Source: Lichtheimia corymbifera B2541
Lineage: Eukaryota; Mucoromycota; Mucoromycetes; Mucorales; Lichtheimiaceae
Reading direction: 5' to 3'
Assembly (NCBI GenBank): GCA_000697475.1
Contig: JNEU01000738.1
Coordinates: 1 to 61,844, forward strand
Length of the DNA: 61,844 nucleotides
In this document: piece after piece, positions 6,626 through 61,466 of the stretch
Layout: each line of letters starts with the position of its first letter
Numbering within the stretch: the first letter of the stretch is position 1
The notes under the pieces: model-generated
Told to the model about the DNA's origin: nothing
Seen by the model: only the letters and a program-made list of their open reading frames with translations
Database searches by the model: none
Program-made: the position numbers and the translations under genes

Positions 6626-7408
6626 GGAAGCCGTTAAATCAGCATCATTCTCCTTCTGCCGCCATCGGAAACTGAATAGATTCAACGGGAGGTTGCACCA
6701 TGTCAACTTCAGCACCAGAGGTAGACCATGGTACCGAAACCAACTTTTGCAGATGCTTCACGGAGAGATAGCTATATCGAAAGTAGCATGGTGGCGTGTA
6801 TGAGTAGCGACTCATCAAGCGAAATGATTGAGGTTTACCCTTTTATAAGAATCCAATATCACAGAGCACGACAGCAACAAGAGGAGGCAAACAAAGGAAC
6901 CCTATGAATGACACCGAGGATCAGCGCTTATTCACAGGTTGCAAGATGGGATATACACACAAACCTTGGACATTGGACCTTGTGAGCAATCAAAGAAGTA
7001 TGGCAGTGGAGGGAAGAGATATGTGGTAGAATGATGGGCGGCGACAACATCCTTTTATTATGCATTGTGGGCGTGGGTATTTCTCTCTGTTGGGGATGAT
7101 GCATTGATAAATTGATACAAGAGCTGATAAAGTGATGGGGCGTATGCACCAGGAGAGCCTAGTAGGTGCAATGTTATCTATGCATACATCGGCAGGTGAT
7201 AAGAAATCTACCAAGGAAGGTAATCACCTGTACGCCTAATGCACATCCCCATTATTATAAAGACGACTTACCATGTTATCAATCTACTCTTATATTGGTG
7301 TGCCTGTTCGGTAAGCAGCGACAATGATCGGATCACCTTTGATATCAGCAATCAAGCCTCATCTGGCATTGCGCAACCGCGATTTGAATAGAGGATGGTG
7401 CAAGACTA
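6626..7408 (-). repeat. Dispersed repeat copy A (terminal-inverted-repeat family)
   Basis: This copy lies in the opposite orientation to copies B and C. Its left edge carries GGAAGCCGTTAAATCA (6626-6641), which is the end of copy C read in reverse, followed by TTGCACCATGTC at 6693-6704. The core (about 6930-7260) matches copies B and C at nucleotide level, including the segment around the AATAAAAGGATG-type motif (minus strand) and the GATATCAGCAATCAAGCCTC end. The outer right terminus is lost after about 7408, so the copy is truncated there. Relative to copy C it carries an extra 16-18 bp just inside the left terminus. Confidence 0.75.
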
Positions 7409-46907: not shown

Positions 46908-48034
46908 CGCCCACTTTTCGGGCTTTGCTATTTGCACCATGTCTCTTGCACCATCCTTTATTCAAACCGCAATTGTGGCATACCAGGTGAGGCTTGGTTG
47001 CTGATATAAAAGGTGATCCTATCATACTCGCTGCTTAACGAACACCAATACCGATATTAAGAGTAGGTTGACAACATGGCAAGTTACCCTTATAATAATC
47101 GGGATGTGCATTAGGCGTACGTACAAGTGATTAATTTCCTTGGTAGATTTCTTATCACCTGCCGATGTATGCATAGACGACATTGCACCTAGGCTCTCCT
47201 GGTACATACACCCCATCACATTATCAGCTCATGCATCAATTTATCAATGCATCGTCCCCCAACAGACAAAATACCCACGCTCACAGTGCACAATAAAAGG
47301 ATGTTGTCGCCGCCCATCATTCCATCACACCTCTCTTTCCTCCACTGTCATACTTCTTTGATTGCTTACAAGACCAAATACATCACCTTCAGGTATACAA
47401 CAACGTGCAGCAACCAAAGCTATCTTAGATACTGATATTGTTTTGGATTTTAGCTATCCACAATCAAGACGGCCAAGATGAGCCTATTAGTGGCATCATA
47501 TTATCTCCTTCAGGTATACAACAACATGCATCAACCAAAGCTTGATTGGATATAAATACCGCTTTTGGGTTTTAGCTATCCATGCTCACCACGGAGACAA
47601 CAACGAAGCATTGCCTTTTGCGCCATTCGTATTCGTTGATGATGATACTACTATGCAGCGCAACTATACAACTATGGAGTCTGTACCAGCTTCGTTACCT
47701 GAGCAATAGCCTAGATCGGCTCATCACAATAGCAACAATCGCTCCCTCAATTACAAGGTTTGTGTGTATCACATTTCTCAACCTGTGAATAAGTGCTGGT
47801 CTTTGTGGACATTCATAGTGCTTCTTTGTATTGTAGCCACCACTGTGATACTGGACCCTTATAATGAGGTAAAGCTTGCTCATGTTGTTTGATGAGTCAA
47901 CACTCATACATGCTACCTTGTTGCTTTTGATATAGCTATCTCTCTGTGAAGCATTTGCAAAAGTTGGTTTAGATACCATGGTCTACGCCGGGTGCTGAAA
48001 TTGACATGGTACAAATAGCAAACGTCCACTTTTC
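46908..48034 (+). repeat. Dispersed repeat copy B with an internal insertion
   Basis: Same orientation as copy C. The ends form an imperfect inverted repeat: TTTGCTATTTGCACCATGTC (about 46922-46941) against the reverse complement of 48003-48022, 19 of 20 positions alike. The outer GGAAGCCGTTAAATCACC terminus of copy C is missing on both sides. The core 46930-47375 matches copies A and C. A segment of about 380 bp (47376-47757) interrupts the alignment and itself holds two roughly 80-bp units 120 bp apart, each starting CCTTCAGGTATACAACAAC and ending TTTTAGCTATCCA. After it the match to A and C resumes at TACAAGGTTTGTGTGTAT. Confidence 0.75.
47386..47599 (+). repeat. Tandemly duplicated ~80-bp unit inside copy B
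   Basis: Unit 1 begins near 47386 and unit 2 near 47507. Both open with CCTTCAGGTATACAACAAC, then GC(A/T)(G/T)CAACCAAAGCT-like sequence, a variable middle, and TTTTAGCTATCCA before the end. They differ at several positions, so the duplication is not recent. No similar unit was seen elsewhere in the window. Confidence 0.7.
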
Positions 48035-52999: not shown

Positions 53000-53135
53000 A
53001 CTGGAGTTGCACCATGTCAAATGCACCATTTTTATTCAAACTGCGCTTAATTGCTGATATCAATGAATTGGATCGTCATTGCTTGTATTCGAATACGCAG
53101 ACTACACGTATACCATCATTAAGAGTAGTCTGGAA
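53000..53135 (+). repeat. Dispersed repeat copy D (left-end fragment)
   Basis: About 135 bp matching the left end of copies B and C: TTGCACCATGTC at 53007-53018, then AATGCACCATTTTTATTCAAAC, TTGCTGATATCAA, TCATTGCTTGTATTCG and CGTATACCA...AGAGTAG. The rest of the element is missing. It lies directly upstream of the TMEM242-like gene, which is read away from it, so it may now be part of that promoter. Confidence 0.7.
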
Positions 53136-55724: not shown

Positions 55725-56513
55725 GGAAGCCGTTAAATCACCACCATGGGAGGGCTTACTATTTGCACCATGTCTTTTGCACCGTCCTTCATTCAAGCAG
55801 CCATAACAGGGGAGGCTTGATTGCTGATATCAAATGTGACCCGATCATCCTCATTGCTTATACCGAACACGTATACCAACACCAAGAGTAGGTTGAGATG
55901 TAAGTCACCTTTATAATAATTTGGAGATGTGCATTAGGCGTACAAGTGATGAACGTCCTTGATAGATACTTTATCACCTTCTAATTTGGCAATGTCATGC
56001 ATAGAAAGCATGGCGCTCCACCACTTTATCAGTTCTTGCATCAATTTATCAATGCACCATTCCCAACAGACAGAAATACCCACGCCCACAATGCACAATA
56101 AAAGGATGTTGTCGCCGCCCATCATTCTACCACACGTCTCTTTCCTCCACTGTCATACTTCTTTAATTGCTTACAAGGTCAAATGTCCAAGGTTAGTGTG
56201 TATATCCCATCTTGCAACCTGTAAATAAGCGCTGATCCTTGGGGTCATTGATAGGGTTCCTTTGTTTTCCTGCTCTTGTTGTTGTCATCCTCTGTGATAT
56301 TGGATTCTTATAAAAAGGTAAACCTCGATCATTACGCTTGATGAGTCAATACTCATAAACGCCACCTTGTTACTTTCGACATAGCGATCACTCCGTGAAG
56401 CATCTGCAAAAGTTGGTTTCGGTACCATGGTCTACGTCTGGTGCTGAAGTTGATATGGTGCAACCTCCCGTTCAATCTTTTCAGTTTCCGATGGCGGTGA
56501 TTTAACGGCTTCC
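55725..56513 (+). repeat. Dispersed repeat copy C with perfect terminal inverted repeats
   Basis: 789-bp element bounded by an 18-bp perfect inverted repeat, GGAAGCCGTTAAATCACC, at 55725-55742 and (reverse complement) 56496-56513. Subterminal inverted motifs TTGCACCATGTC (55763-55774) and GATATGGTGCAA (56452-56463) lie inside. No target-site duplication is evident at the present edges (CAC on the left, CTC on the right). No transposase frame is present; only short overlapping frames shared by nucleotide similarity with copies A and B. An AATAAAAGGATG-type motif lies near 56097-56108 and the most conserved block is about 55920-56230. It fits a non-autonomous DNA element (MITE-like), but a degenerate LTR-type origin of the inner block cannot be excluded. 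Confidence 0.8.
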
Positions 56514-58721: not shown

Positions 58722-61466
58722 TTTTTTTTTGTATTGAAAGTGTAGACTTTATTAAACAGTATTGGGAAGTGACGATGGAACAAAAGAAACATACAATAGA
58801 TCGGCTTGTAGCGTACTGAGAGCGGCTGGTGTTGACCACGGCTGGTCATCTATCTTACAACGCCAATGATGCTGCCATAGGATAGCAATAATGCAGCCAA
58901 GGCGGCATAATATGCTGTCATTGAGAGGTCGGTGTTGGTATGAGTCAAAGCTAGTGAGAGCACGCCAAACGAGAGCTTGTGTAGGAAAGAGGTGACGGAG
59001 GTGCAAGAAATCTAATGCTGCGTGCCAAAATTGGCGTTTGCTTGAGCAAGCAGTGAACATGTGCTGTATATCTTCTTCGTCAATTTTGCAGATTGTGCAC
59101 ATATCGCTGTCAATCTGAGGAACGCGAAATCGGTGGAGCTTTTGTTGTGTGCTAATGCAGTGTTGTAATAATCGCCACCATGGTGTGAATGCCTTGTGTG
59201 GTATCGGTAGGCGCCAGAACTGTTTCCAAAAGGAAGGTGGATAAGTAAATGTCAAAGGCGTGGATGTGTTCGTATCGGATGAGCGATCAAGGATGAATTT
59301 CCAGTGTGGATGCCAATAACGGCGTAATTGCGATAACGATAGAGAAGGGATATCACTGGTCTTGTTGGTTGAGACTTGGAGTATCCAATGCTTCAAAGAC
59401 GGGAGAGTAGAATATACTGATTGGGATGTCGCCGAATCCGTTGAGGAACCTGGTGTGCTGTGAGTGATCGGAAAATGAGTATCAGGATATCCTTCGAGGT
59501 GTACTGTGGATGATGTCATGTTCGAGTGGACCACAGTAGACCGAAACTTTAACAAGGTATGCTGTAACTTTTGACTAGGATGAAGTATAAGGCATTCCCG
59601 TTCCAGATCCCAGTAAGCAACGTCAGACAACAGGTAATGCATCCGAGGTTGAGTTGTCAACTCCGTTGGCCCTGAAGATTTGACAAACCGTAATGGTATG
59701 CTAAGTAGCCATTATGCCGACCAATTATTCGTAGGTTTCAATCCAGGCAGTCAACAAAGAAGCTTCCCCAAATACGCCATATGGGGAATCTCTTTCAAAC
59801 AATATTGGAGTTGTTTTGGATAAAGGAACCATGGTAGAAGTGAGGTGTGGCCAGTCAGCATCTGATAATACCTTATGATCCAGGGTGACAGGAAATCGGA
59901 TGAACGAGGTGGTTTACAAAGACGTTGTAGGTAGGTACACGAAATGTAAAGCTTGACTTTGATCCATGACATTTACAATGCCAACACCGCCATATTTACG
60001 TGGTAGACATAGAGTATCCCAAGATGGTTTCGGCCAGAAAGGTGTGAGGAAAGAAAGTACTATGGATTTCATTTCCTTCAACCATTGCTCAGAGACTGGG
60101 GTGACACGAAGGACATGCCACAACCGAGACAATAATATTGAATTGACCACCGTGCTAGCACCTCGAAGTGATAAACGACGTTCCTTGAGGATGTTGGCGT
60201 GCCGGAGTACCTTGATCTTAACGGAAGCCATAAAGAGAGAGAGCTGATCCTCGTTATGATACAGAGGATACCCCAGATATCGTACTGCTTCGGAGCTATG
60301 TGCGTCATGCCATTGTGCCCCAAAGGTATCCGCAAGTTGTTCCCATTCAAGATAGTGCTTTCCAGACAGTGACATCAAAATAGTTTTGTTGAGGTTAACC
60401 TTGGCATTAGATGCCGCACCGTAGCATTGTAGAAGATCCATCAGTATATCCCATTCTCGAGGATGAGAGAGGAAGACTTCTAAGTCATCTGCATAATTCA
60501 AAAGTTTGATCGGAGGCGGTGTGGGAGGGATCCGTTGTCGCATGTCCGTGGTGTATTGAGGTCCAGATTGTAAACGCGGTGGTGCAAGAGTCACTCCTTG
60601 TAGTTGACTGGCCAAGATGGAACGTAACAAAGGTTCAAACATAAGGTTGAACAATAATGGAGAGAGAGGATCCCCTTGTCGTAGTCCTCTGCCTTGTTGA
60701 AACGGTTTGCCCAAGTGCCCATTGATGCTGACATGCACCTGTGTACCGAAAAATAATCGCGATAAACTGGTAATGATGCTTGTGATTGAGTGGAATAAAA
60801 ATGGAATGAGATTGCAAATGAGACAATAATAAGTCAAGTGAGACTGAAAGATATCCTTTATTCAATGAAAGTGTCCACTCTTTTATATCTAAACGATTGA
60901 TCCTGCTATAACCTGATTCTCCCACGCCTTCACACCATGATTACTAACGATGATGGTATTCTCGATATACCCATAATCTTACGTACGTGTGTGTGCCAAT
61001 GTACCTGACAGCCATATAGGATAAGATTCATGCGTGGGAGAATGTATGTGTGACAAACATGAGATGATAGGAGAATTAAATGACAGCTGTGGGAACCAAC
61101 ATATGATGATTGAGCTGTGTCTACGACAATGCTGTCGGGAAATCCAAAATGTGATAGGACGCCACGCAAATATCCAGGATGAACTCTGTCATAAGCTTTC
61201 TCTTGATCGAGAAAAACTGCTACTGCTGGATCGTGCGGTTGGGCCTTGCGATGGTTATGCATCACCACTTGGTTTATCCATCCATTGTCCGAGATCAACC
61301 GATGTGGCATGAAGCCCGTTTGATATGGGCTTATGAGTTTGGGCAAGACTTGGTTGAGACGGTTGGCCAGAAGCTTGGTGAACAACTTGGCATCCGTATT
61401 GATCAATGAAAGCGGTCTCCAGTTGCGTAACAGCTCAGGGTCTCCTTTCTTAAAAAGCAATGAGAT
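58722..61466 (-). mobile_element. LINE-type non-LTR retrotransposon, ORF2 remnant
   Basis: Degenerate minus-strand LINE. From 5' to 3' on the minus strand: ISLLFKKGDPELLRNWRPLS (starting near 61463), AVFLDQEKAYDRV (RT motif A, catalytic Asp), then after a nested insertion FFGTQVHVSINGHLGKPF, QGRGLRQGDPLSPLLFNL and LLNYADDLEVFL (motif C, YADD, near 60490), then thumb-like sequence, and at 58752-59660 a C-terminal zf-RVT region (FWRLPIPHKAFTPWWRLLQH, MCTICKIDEED, HMFTACSSKRQFWH). Frame changes near 59920 and 61100 and a gap near 59660-59750 mean it is no longer coding. The 3' tail is AATAAAGTCTACACTTTCAA followed by poly(A), seen as T9 at 58722-58730. The 5' part is cut off at 61466 by further inserted sequence. 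Confidence 0.88.
60783..61114 (-). mobile_element. Insertion of 316 bp nested in the LINE reverse transcriptase
   Basis: The RT reading is interrupted between FGFPDSIV and the FFGTQVHV segment. The interrupting DNA (60791-61106) is flanked by an 8-bp direct repeat TGATTGAG at 60783-60790 and 61107-61114. Setting it aside brings the two RT parts to within about 14 codons, with one frame change. On the minus strand it holds a TATAAAAG box followed 25 bp later by AATAAA, as in a solo LTR, and starts near TGTTGG. It also has an 11-bp inverted repeat TTCTCCCACGC (60917-60927 and 61032-61042). The ends do not form terminal inverted repeats. Class is undecided: solo LTR or a small DNA element; 8-bp duplications are usual for hAT elements. 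Confidence 0.6.

Follow-up and report, generated by a model that had tools for sequence, protein, structure and literature searches.

A dispersed, probably Mutator-like family of non-coding elements carrying one core under two nested end types in Lichtheimia corymbifera

The locus and its repeat copies

The window, by which we mean the whole stretch of 61,844 nucleotides that was analysed, is a single contig (C156) of a 34.98-Mb assembly comprising 432 contigs. Thirty-three open reading frames (ORFs) were listed for it, and seven of the ten that were submitted to Pfam returned a match (PPR, DHDPS, class-3 lipase, Iml2, ankyrin, zf-RVT and ATG14); a scan of the window for tRNAs and Rfam families gave no match. 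The ORF with the zf-RVT domain (58752-59660; E = 5e-12) probably belongs to a LINE-type retroelement. Positioned between the ORFs are four repeat copies, A to D, whose features are listed here; "type 1" and "type 2" denote the two kinds of element ends described in the following section, and C307 is a transposase-bearing element found elsewhere in the genome.

55725..56513, + strand: copy C, a complete type-1 non-autonomous element of 789 bp with exact 18-bp inverted ends, at least 44 genome matches, and flanks without a duplication
55725..55751, + strand: left type-1 outer end of copy C, a 27-bp inverted repeat (93%) with 56487-56513
56487..56513, - strand: right type-1 outer end of copy C, the 27-bp inverted repeat partner of 55725..55751, with the exact 18-bp terminus
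55752..55774, + strand: inner type-2-like end GGGCTTACTATTTGCACCATGTC, nested within the type-1 end
56452..56463, - strand: inner subterminal motif TTGCACCATATC on the right side of copy C, one mismatch to TTGCACCATGTC
6626..7404, - strand: copy A, a type-1 element that has kept one outer end (6626, terminus with one mismatch) and lost the other; 86% to C over 707 bp
46920..48026, + strand: copy B, a complete type-2 element whose interior holds about 370 bp of additional sequence; its left 24 bp are the terminus of the C307 MULE
46912..46919, + strand: left flanking duplication of copy B, CACTTTTC
48027..48034, + strand: right flanking duplication of copy B, CACTTTTC
53007..53128, + strand: copy D, probably an old fragment, bearing a type-2-like end on one side; 65% over 153 bp, with a 22-bp exact type-2 match

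The first-pass annotation of this DNA ascribed perfect 18-bp terminal inverted repeats (TIRs) to copy C, and the sequence GGAAGCCGTTAAATCACC is indeed present without mismatch at its start and at its end. The inner motif that was placed near both ends is likewise there, exactly on the left (TTGCACCATGTC) and with the single mismatch on the right. The outermost bases of copy C read GG...CC in inverted orientation, and its longest ORF comprises 89 amino acids. Three matches to the 18-bp outer terminus were found in the window (two in C, one with a mismatch in A), where shuffling leads one to expect 0.02; this agrees with the earlier observation that the outer terminus is present on both ends of C and on one end of A. 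A and C are type-1 elements, and B is a type-2 element.

Copy B resembles copy C in two blocks (77-78%). On the left it begins with an exact copy of the 24-bp type-2 end; on the right it is identical to the C307 end at 21 of 22 bases over positions 5-26. When the right end is set one base shorter, the flanking duplication reads CCACTTTTC, and its length is hence given as 8-9 bp. Within the extra sequence of copy B, which is absent from the other aligned copies, a stretch like TTCAGGTATACAACAACRTGCA occurs twice (47389-47570). The similarity of copy D to copy C has an E-value of 0.001, and a genome search with this stretch (one candidate) found D itself as the sole match, for which reason D is a weak member of the family. 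The proposal of at least four copies in the window thus holds for A, B and C, but D is only a faint relic.

A dispersed family with two nested end types

With the DNA of copy C as the query, at least 44 matches were found in the genome (40 of 158 candidates scored), and at least 45 with the type-2 element L029 (40 of 136 candidates scored); the family is therefore dispersed, as had been suggested from the window. The two end types that the first reading considered possible do exist: type 1 (GGAAGCCGTTAAATCACCACCAT; copies A and C) and type 2 (GGGCTTTGCTATTTGCACCATGTC; copy B). The 23-bp type-1 pattern, with up to three mismatches, occurs at 41 + 41 = 82 places (reversed control, 0 + 0), and at 54 + 49 places in a looser form; the type-2 terminus occurs at 22 + 20 = 42 places (control, 0 + 0). 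Chance as the origin of these ends was rejected on the basis of these counts and that for the window. The 26 complete type-1 copies are between 337 and 843 bp long, and similarity is about 65-75% among the more distant relatives that have type-1 ends; the type-1-like end pattern is GGAAGCCGTTA(A/T)ATCACC.

The two end types are more than alternatives, as they are nested together in many of the same elements. A type-2-like GCACC motif lies within 125 bp of 54 of the 79 distinct type-1 termini, while shuffling of the same windows gave a mean of 0.6 and a maximum of 3. In the form CTATTTGCACC it accompanies 32 of these termini, 29 of them at an offset of 32-38, which corresponds to a left-end layout of a type-1 end, GGGA, and then a type-2-like end. 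The form TTGCACCATG is found at 22 further termini, eight of them at an offset of 82-83, a right-end layout; neither form lies within 125 bp of the remaining 25. A full type-2 end sits directly within a type-1 end at some loci (L058, L080, L081, L025), and two elements are mixed, pairing one type-1 with one type-2 end (L025, L084). The outer ends of 23-27 bp and the inner ends of 24 bp have only a loose pattern in common. No flanking duplication was seen around the inner ends when the printed ends were inspected by eye. As a separate observation, the element L094 (C145:3900-4900) has a type-2 end and an interior without a match to copy C; the type-2 terminus may thus be common to other families as well.

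A tree of the core was built from 40 rows, with L081, L084, L034 and L037 dropped as short or partial, and the type-2 label was given to five rows, including the mixed element L025 and L027, which has lost one end. Type-2 and type-1 rows are intermixed on this tree: three label changes are needed, two of which are forced by well-supported branches, and the clustering of the type-2 rows is no better than that of shuffled labels (161 of 500 were as low). The end switch has hence occurred more than once, or was lost again.

Transposase-bearing elements and target duplications

The genome was searched for MULE transposases with a single Pfam model (PF10551; 10 of 10 candidates scored), and nine places were found. 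The element on contig C307 (C307:8057-12002 = L071:3058-7003; 3946 bp) bears inverted repeats of 92 bp (98%), and its outermost 24 bp are the left end of copy B and the type-2 pattern that was searched genome-wide. It is flanked on both sides by the duplication CGACATTT, or CGACATTTG with a one-base shift (8-9 bp). Its reading frame contains a FAR1 domain (E = 1.1e-7) and a MULE domain (E = 5e-20). The C-terminal part gave weak matches when searched singly (Pfam C65, 0.14; OTUD1, 0.74), and a profile of four MULE C-termini from this genome matched OTUD5 with an E-value of 2e-10 over profile positions 17-141. One in-frame stop lies between FAR1 and MULE, and this copy may accordingly be dead in the studied strain; a public protein of 485 amino acids, 99% identical over 60% of the C307 query, has no stop at that place, from which it follows that intact forms exist elsewhere. 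C307 is single-copy in the genome, its other matches being short TIR-like stretches on contigs C398 and C124, and it has only the end in common with the type-2 elements, its core being different. The autonomous partner predicted by the first-pass annotation was thus found in so far as C307 is a MULE of the autonomous type, but it bears the type-2 ends of copy B and not the outer ends of copy C. The other eight MULE places are the following.

C213b: end GGGGCGCGCCTATTTGCACC, 171-bp TIR at 96%, duplication of 7-9 bp depending on end placement
C118: GGGCTCGGCTATTTGCACC, 5' end only, the other end lying beyond the contig
C213a: end GAGGATTACTACGGGCACC, duplication AATAATAT of 8-9 bp
C290: a 99% piece of C213a
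C157: end GGGAATTACTACGCCCGCACC, no duplication
C388 (L070:1-4365): a 97% relative of C157 with an OTU-like C-terminus, its left end lying beyond the contig
C25: 393-bp TIR at 84%, no duplication
C343 (C343:1396-5089; L068, L088, L089): 324-bp TIR at 99%, 10-bp duplication CCGGAATAGC

Type-1 ends were found at none of the nine places; a single end could be read at C118 and at C388, and C290 is a fragment. The end of the C343 MULE consists of eight bases followed by TTATTTCACC, and its likeness to the type-1 end is suggestive only; as no other sequence in the genome matches its TIR, this element is probably recent. The C388 MULE adjoins the right part of a type-1 copy, into which it was apparently inserted. 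Beside the C213b MULE lies an open frame (L085:1452-1970) that, by eye, resembles a Tc1/mariner transposase.

When a one-base shift was permitted at either side, duplications of 8-11 bp were detected in seven of the 26 complete type-1 copies, while 19, copy C among them, scored zero. Four of the duplications are free of mismatches (L028, 11 bp; L005, 10-11 bp; L014, 10 bp; L007, 9 bp) and three are not (L009, 9/10; L021, 7/8; L039, 9/11). The five clear ones (L028, L005, L014, L007, L009) measure 9-11 bp, and none of 650 permuted pairs scored as high; the two weaker ones were equalled by fractions of 0.0015 (L021) and 0.0046 (L039) of the permuted pairs. Among the type-2 elements, duplications were found in copy B (8-9 bp), L029 (8 bp) and C325 (7/8); L026 sits in poly-A, which renders its reading uninformative, and the mixed element L025 has no duplication under the same one-base tolerance. 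Duplication length as a divider between the types (8 versus 9-11 bp) was dropped, since equal tolerance gives 8-9 bp for type 2 and 8-11 bp for type 1.

The cores of 24 copies diverge from their consensus by 3-11%, a level at which 9-bp repeats should not have vanished from so many copies, and the missing duplications consequently need a cause besides age. A comparison of 79 ends gave no cross-locus flank match that would point to ectopic recombination among the sampled type-1 copies. Three of these (L004, L008, L019) have a left flank of 1.4 kb in common, which is 92-94% alike and extends exactly to where the element starts; on the right, L004 and L008 have different flanks. The common left flank is an abundant repeat, R (L004:1-1500, C326:2426-3925, and many other places), with at least 60 matches among 40 of 987 candidates scored. 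Inverted arms of R are seen at several loci, and some type-1 elements adjoin R at one exact point. Eight other copies of R continue past that same point without a type-1 element, and contig C414 holds a lone type-1 end inside R there. We take the pattern as probable rearrangement at the element ends; a likeness between the type-1 end and the empty R sequence was judged unconvincing (92 of 2000 shuffles score as well).

Interpretation and relation to known systems

We consider it very probable that the repeats belong to a Mutator-like (MULE) family, non-coding and non-autonomous, with several dozen copies and with one core standing under two nested sets of ends. Their movement would be of the cut-and-paste kind and would depend on the binding of their ends by a MULE transposase encoded at another place. 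The inner set is that of the FAR1-MULE-OTU transposon C307 and goes with 8-9-bp duplications. The outer set goes with duplications of 8-11 bp; on the left it lies 27 bp outside the inner set, and on the right its distance from the inner motif reaches about 80 bp. It would be used by a MULE not found here or, in trans, by one of the MULEs that are present. If only the inner pair is used, a type-2 element such as B would result, whereas the outer pair would yield type-1 elements such as C. The family, the two end types and their nesting, the type-2 ends on an element with transposase domains and the duplications, where present, are observed; that the C307 protein moves type 2 and that a different transposase serves type 1 is inferred, as is any direction of the switch between them. 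Several findings speak against this explanation: the 19 of 26 complete type-1 copies without a duplication, for which age alone is insufficient; the nine MULE places without type-1 ends; the in-frame stop of C307 and its likeness to type-2 elements in the end only; and L025, which is without a duplication.

The type-1 ends might instead represent sequence that type-2 elements had entered and that was later spread by recombination and segmental duplication, and thus be no true transposon ends. The missing duplications, the common left flank that stops exactly at the element in L004, L008 and L019, and the lone end of C414 within R would suit such a history. However, five type-1 copies lie at different sites with 9-11-bp duplications that abut the outer end with at most one mismatch, scores not reached by any of the 650 permuted pairs, and no duplication matched across loci among the 79 ends; we regard this reading as improbable. 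That the blocks are solo long terminal repeats (LTRs) of a retrotransposon, as might be thought of dispersed, non-coding sequences of about 800 bp, is scarcely conceivable. Solo LTRs have TG...CA ends and 4-6-bp duplications; the elements studied here have inverted GG...CC ends, duplications of 8-11 bp where these are present, and a type-2 end that is the end of a MULE. Neither of the two findings that the first-pass annotation had named as fatal to its proposal, namely ends confined to copy C or a solo LTR, was thus obtained, as GGAAGCCGTTAAATCACC is common to other copies (82 places).

It is quite possible, even if we rather doubt it, that type 1 is an old, diverged duplicate of the same end, in the fashion of the plant tandem-TIR MULEs, with one transposase binding both. 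Type-1 variants are closer to the termini of C307, C118 and C213b than shuffled sequences are (fractions 0.000-0.040 in 400 shuffles), the ranges of duplication length for type 1 and type 2 meet at 8-9 bp, and the layout resembles that of the plant elements in the consulted part of their description (PMC3310237). Yet the resemblance is slight (scores of 0-5 over 23 bp) and stems from 21 comparisons, type 1 resembles another MULE, C343, about as strongly, and the plant TIR pairs are, in the same part of that source, similar over at least 100 bp, which the ends studied here are not. Returning to the preferred reading of a Mutator-like family, we put forward tentatively, and as somewhat unlikely in its entirety, a scenario in which the two dissimilar nested end sets answer to two MULE transposases, the element has changed masters more than once, shedding or keeping its outer coat, and many copies with outer ends arise without a duplication.

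A gene-less transposon coming under a new transposase is rarely caught in the act. A single genome here holds the core with outer, inner, both and mixed ends, together with a transposase-bearing element for one set, and this makes end switching traceable and testable. The analysis also yielded a group of MULEs to which an OTU-like protease is fused. Among the papers listed by a literature search, with Repbase and most subscription papers outside its reach, no title or abstract opening describes a MULE family with dissimilar nested ends or a MULE-OTU fusion, which is no proof of absence. The portion of the Ginger paper that was available assigns OTU to Ginger1 and Helitron, and Ulp1 to Mutator (PMC2836005), and the word OTU does not occur in the main text, as available, of a paper on Mutator-like elements (PMC6446971).

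The family is ordinary in kind as a non-autonomous MULE family and unusual in that the same core travels under two dissimilar, nested ends. Mutator-like elements have duplications of 8-11 bp, inverted ends of 14-500 bp and, in some groups, FAR1 and SWIM domains, according to the part of the source that was consulted (PMC6446971); the family has terminal inverted repeats and, for type 2 only, ends in common with an element encoding a MULE transposase. Its members are short, non-coding, multicopy and bounded by inverted ends, as MITEs are, but differ from these by two alternative nested end pairs around one core. As in the coral CMITE/CMITE-IN pair, judged from the accessible part of its description (PMC2872659), the core is better conserved than the ends, and an element within an element forms a new mobile unit; the coral elements, however, are of the piggyBac type with TTAA sites, whereas those of L. 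corymbifera are MULE-type with 8-11-bp duplications, where these are present, and no direct repeats seen around the inner element. The tandem-TIR MULEs of tomato, rice, maize and Arabidopsis, in which the external TIR resembles the internal one for 100 bp or more in the portion of the report available (PMC3310237), agree with the present family in being mostly non-autonomous, in their external and internal end pairs and in having single-TIR relatives; their duplications measure 9-10 bp in that portion, a length within the range of those present here. A likeness of that length was not found between the 23-27-bp outer and the 24-bp inner ends. In contrast to the plant elements as described there, the ends of the L. 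corymbifera family are short and dissimilar, each of them also serves as a terminus by itself, and a transposase-bearing element has the type-2 pair in common with the family.
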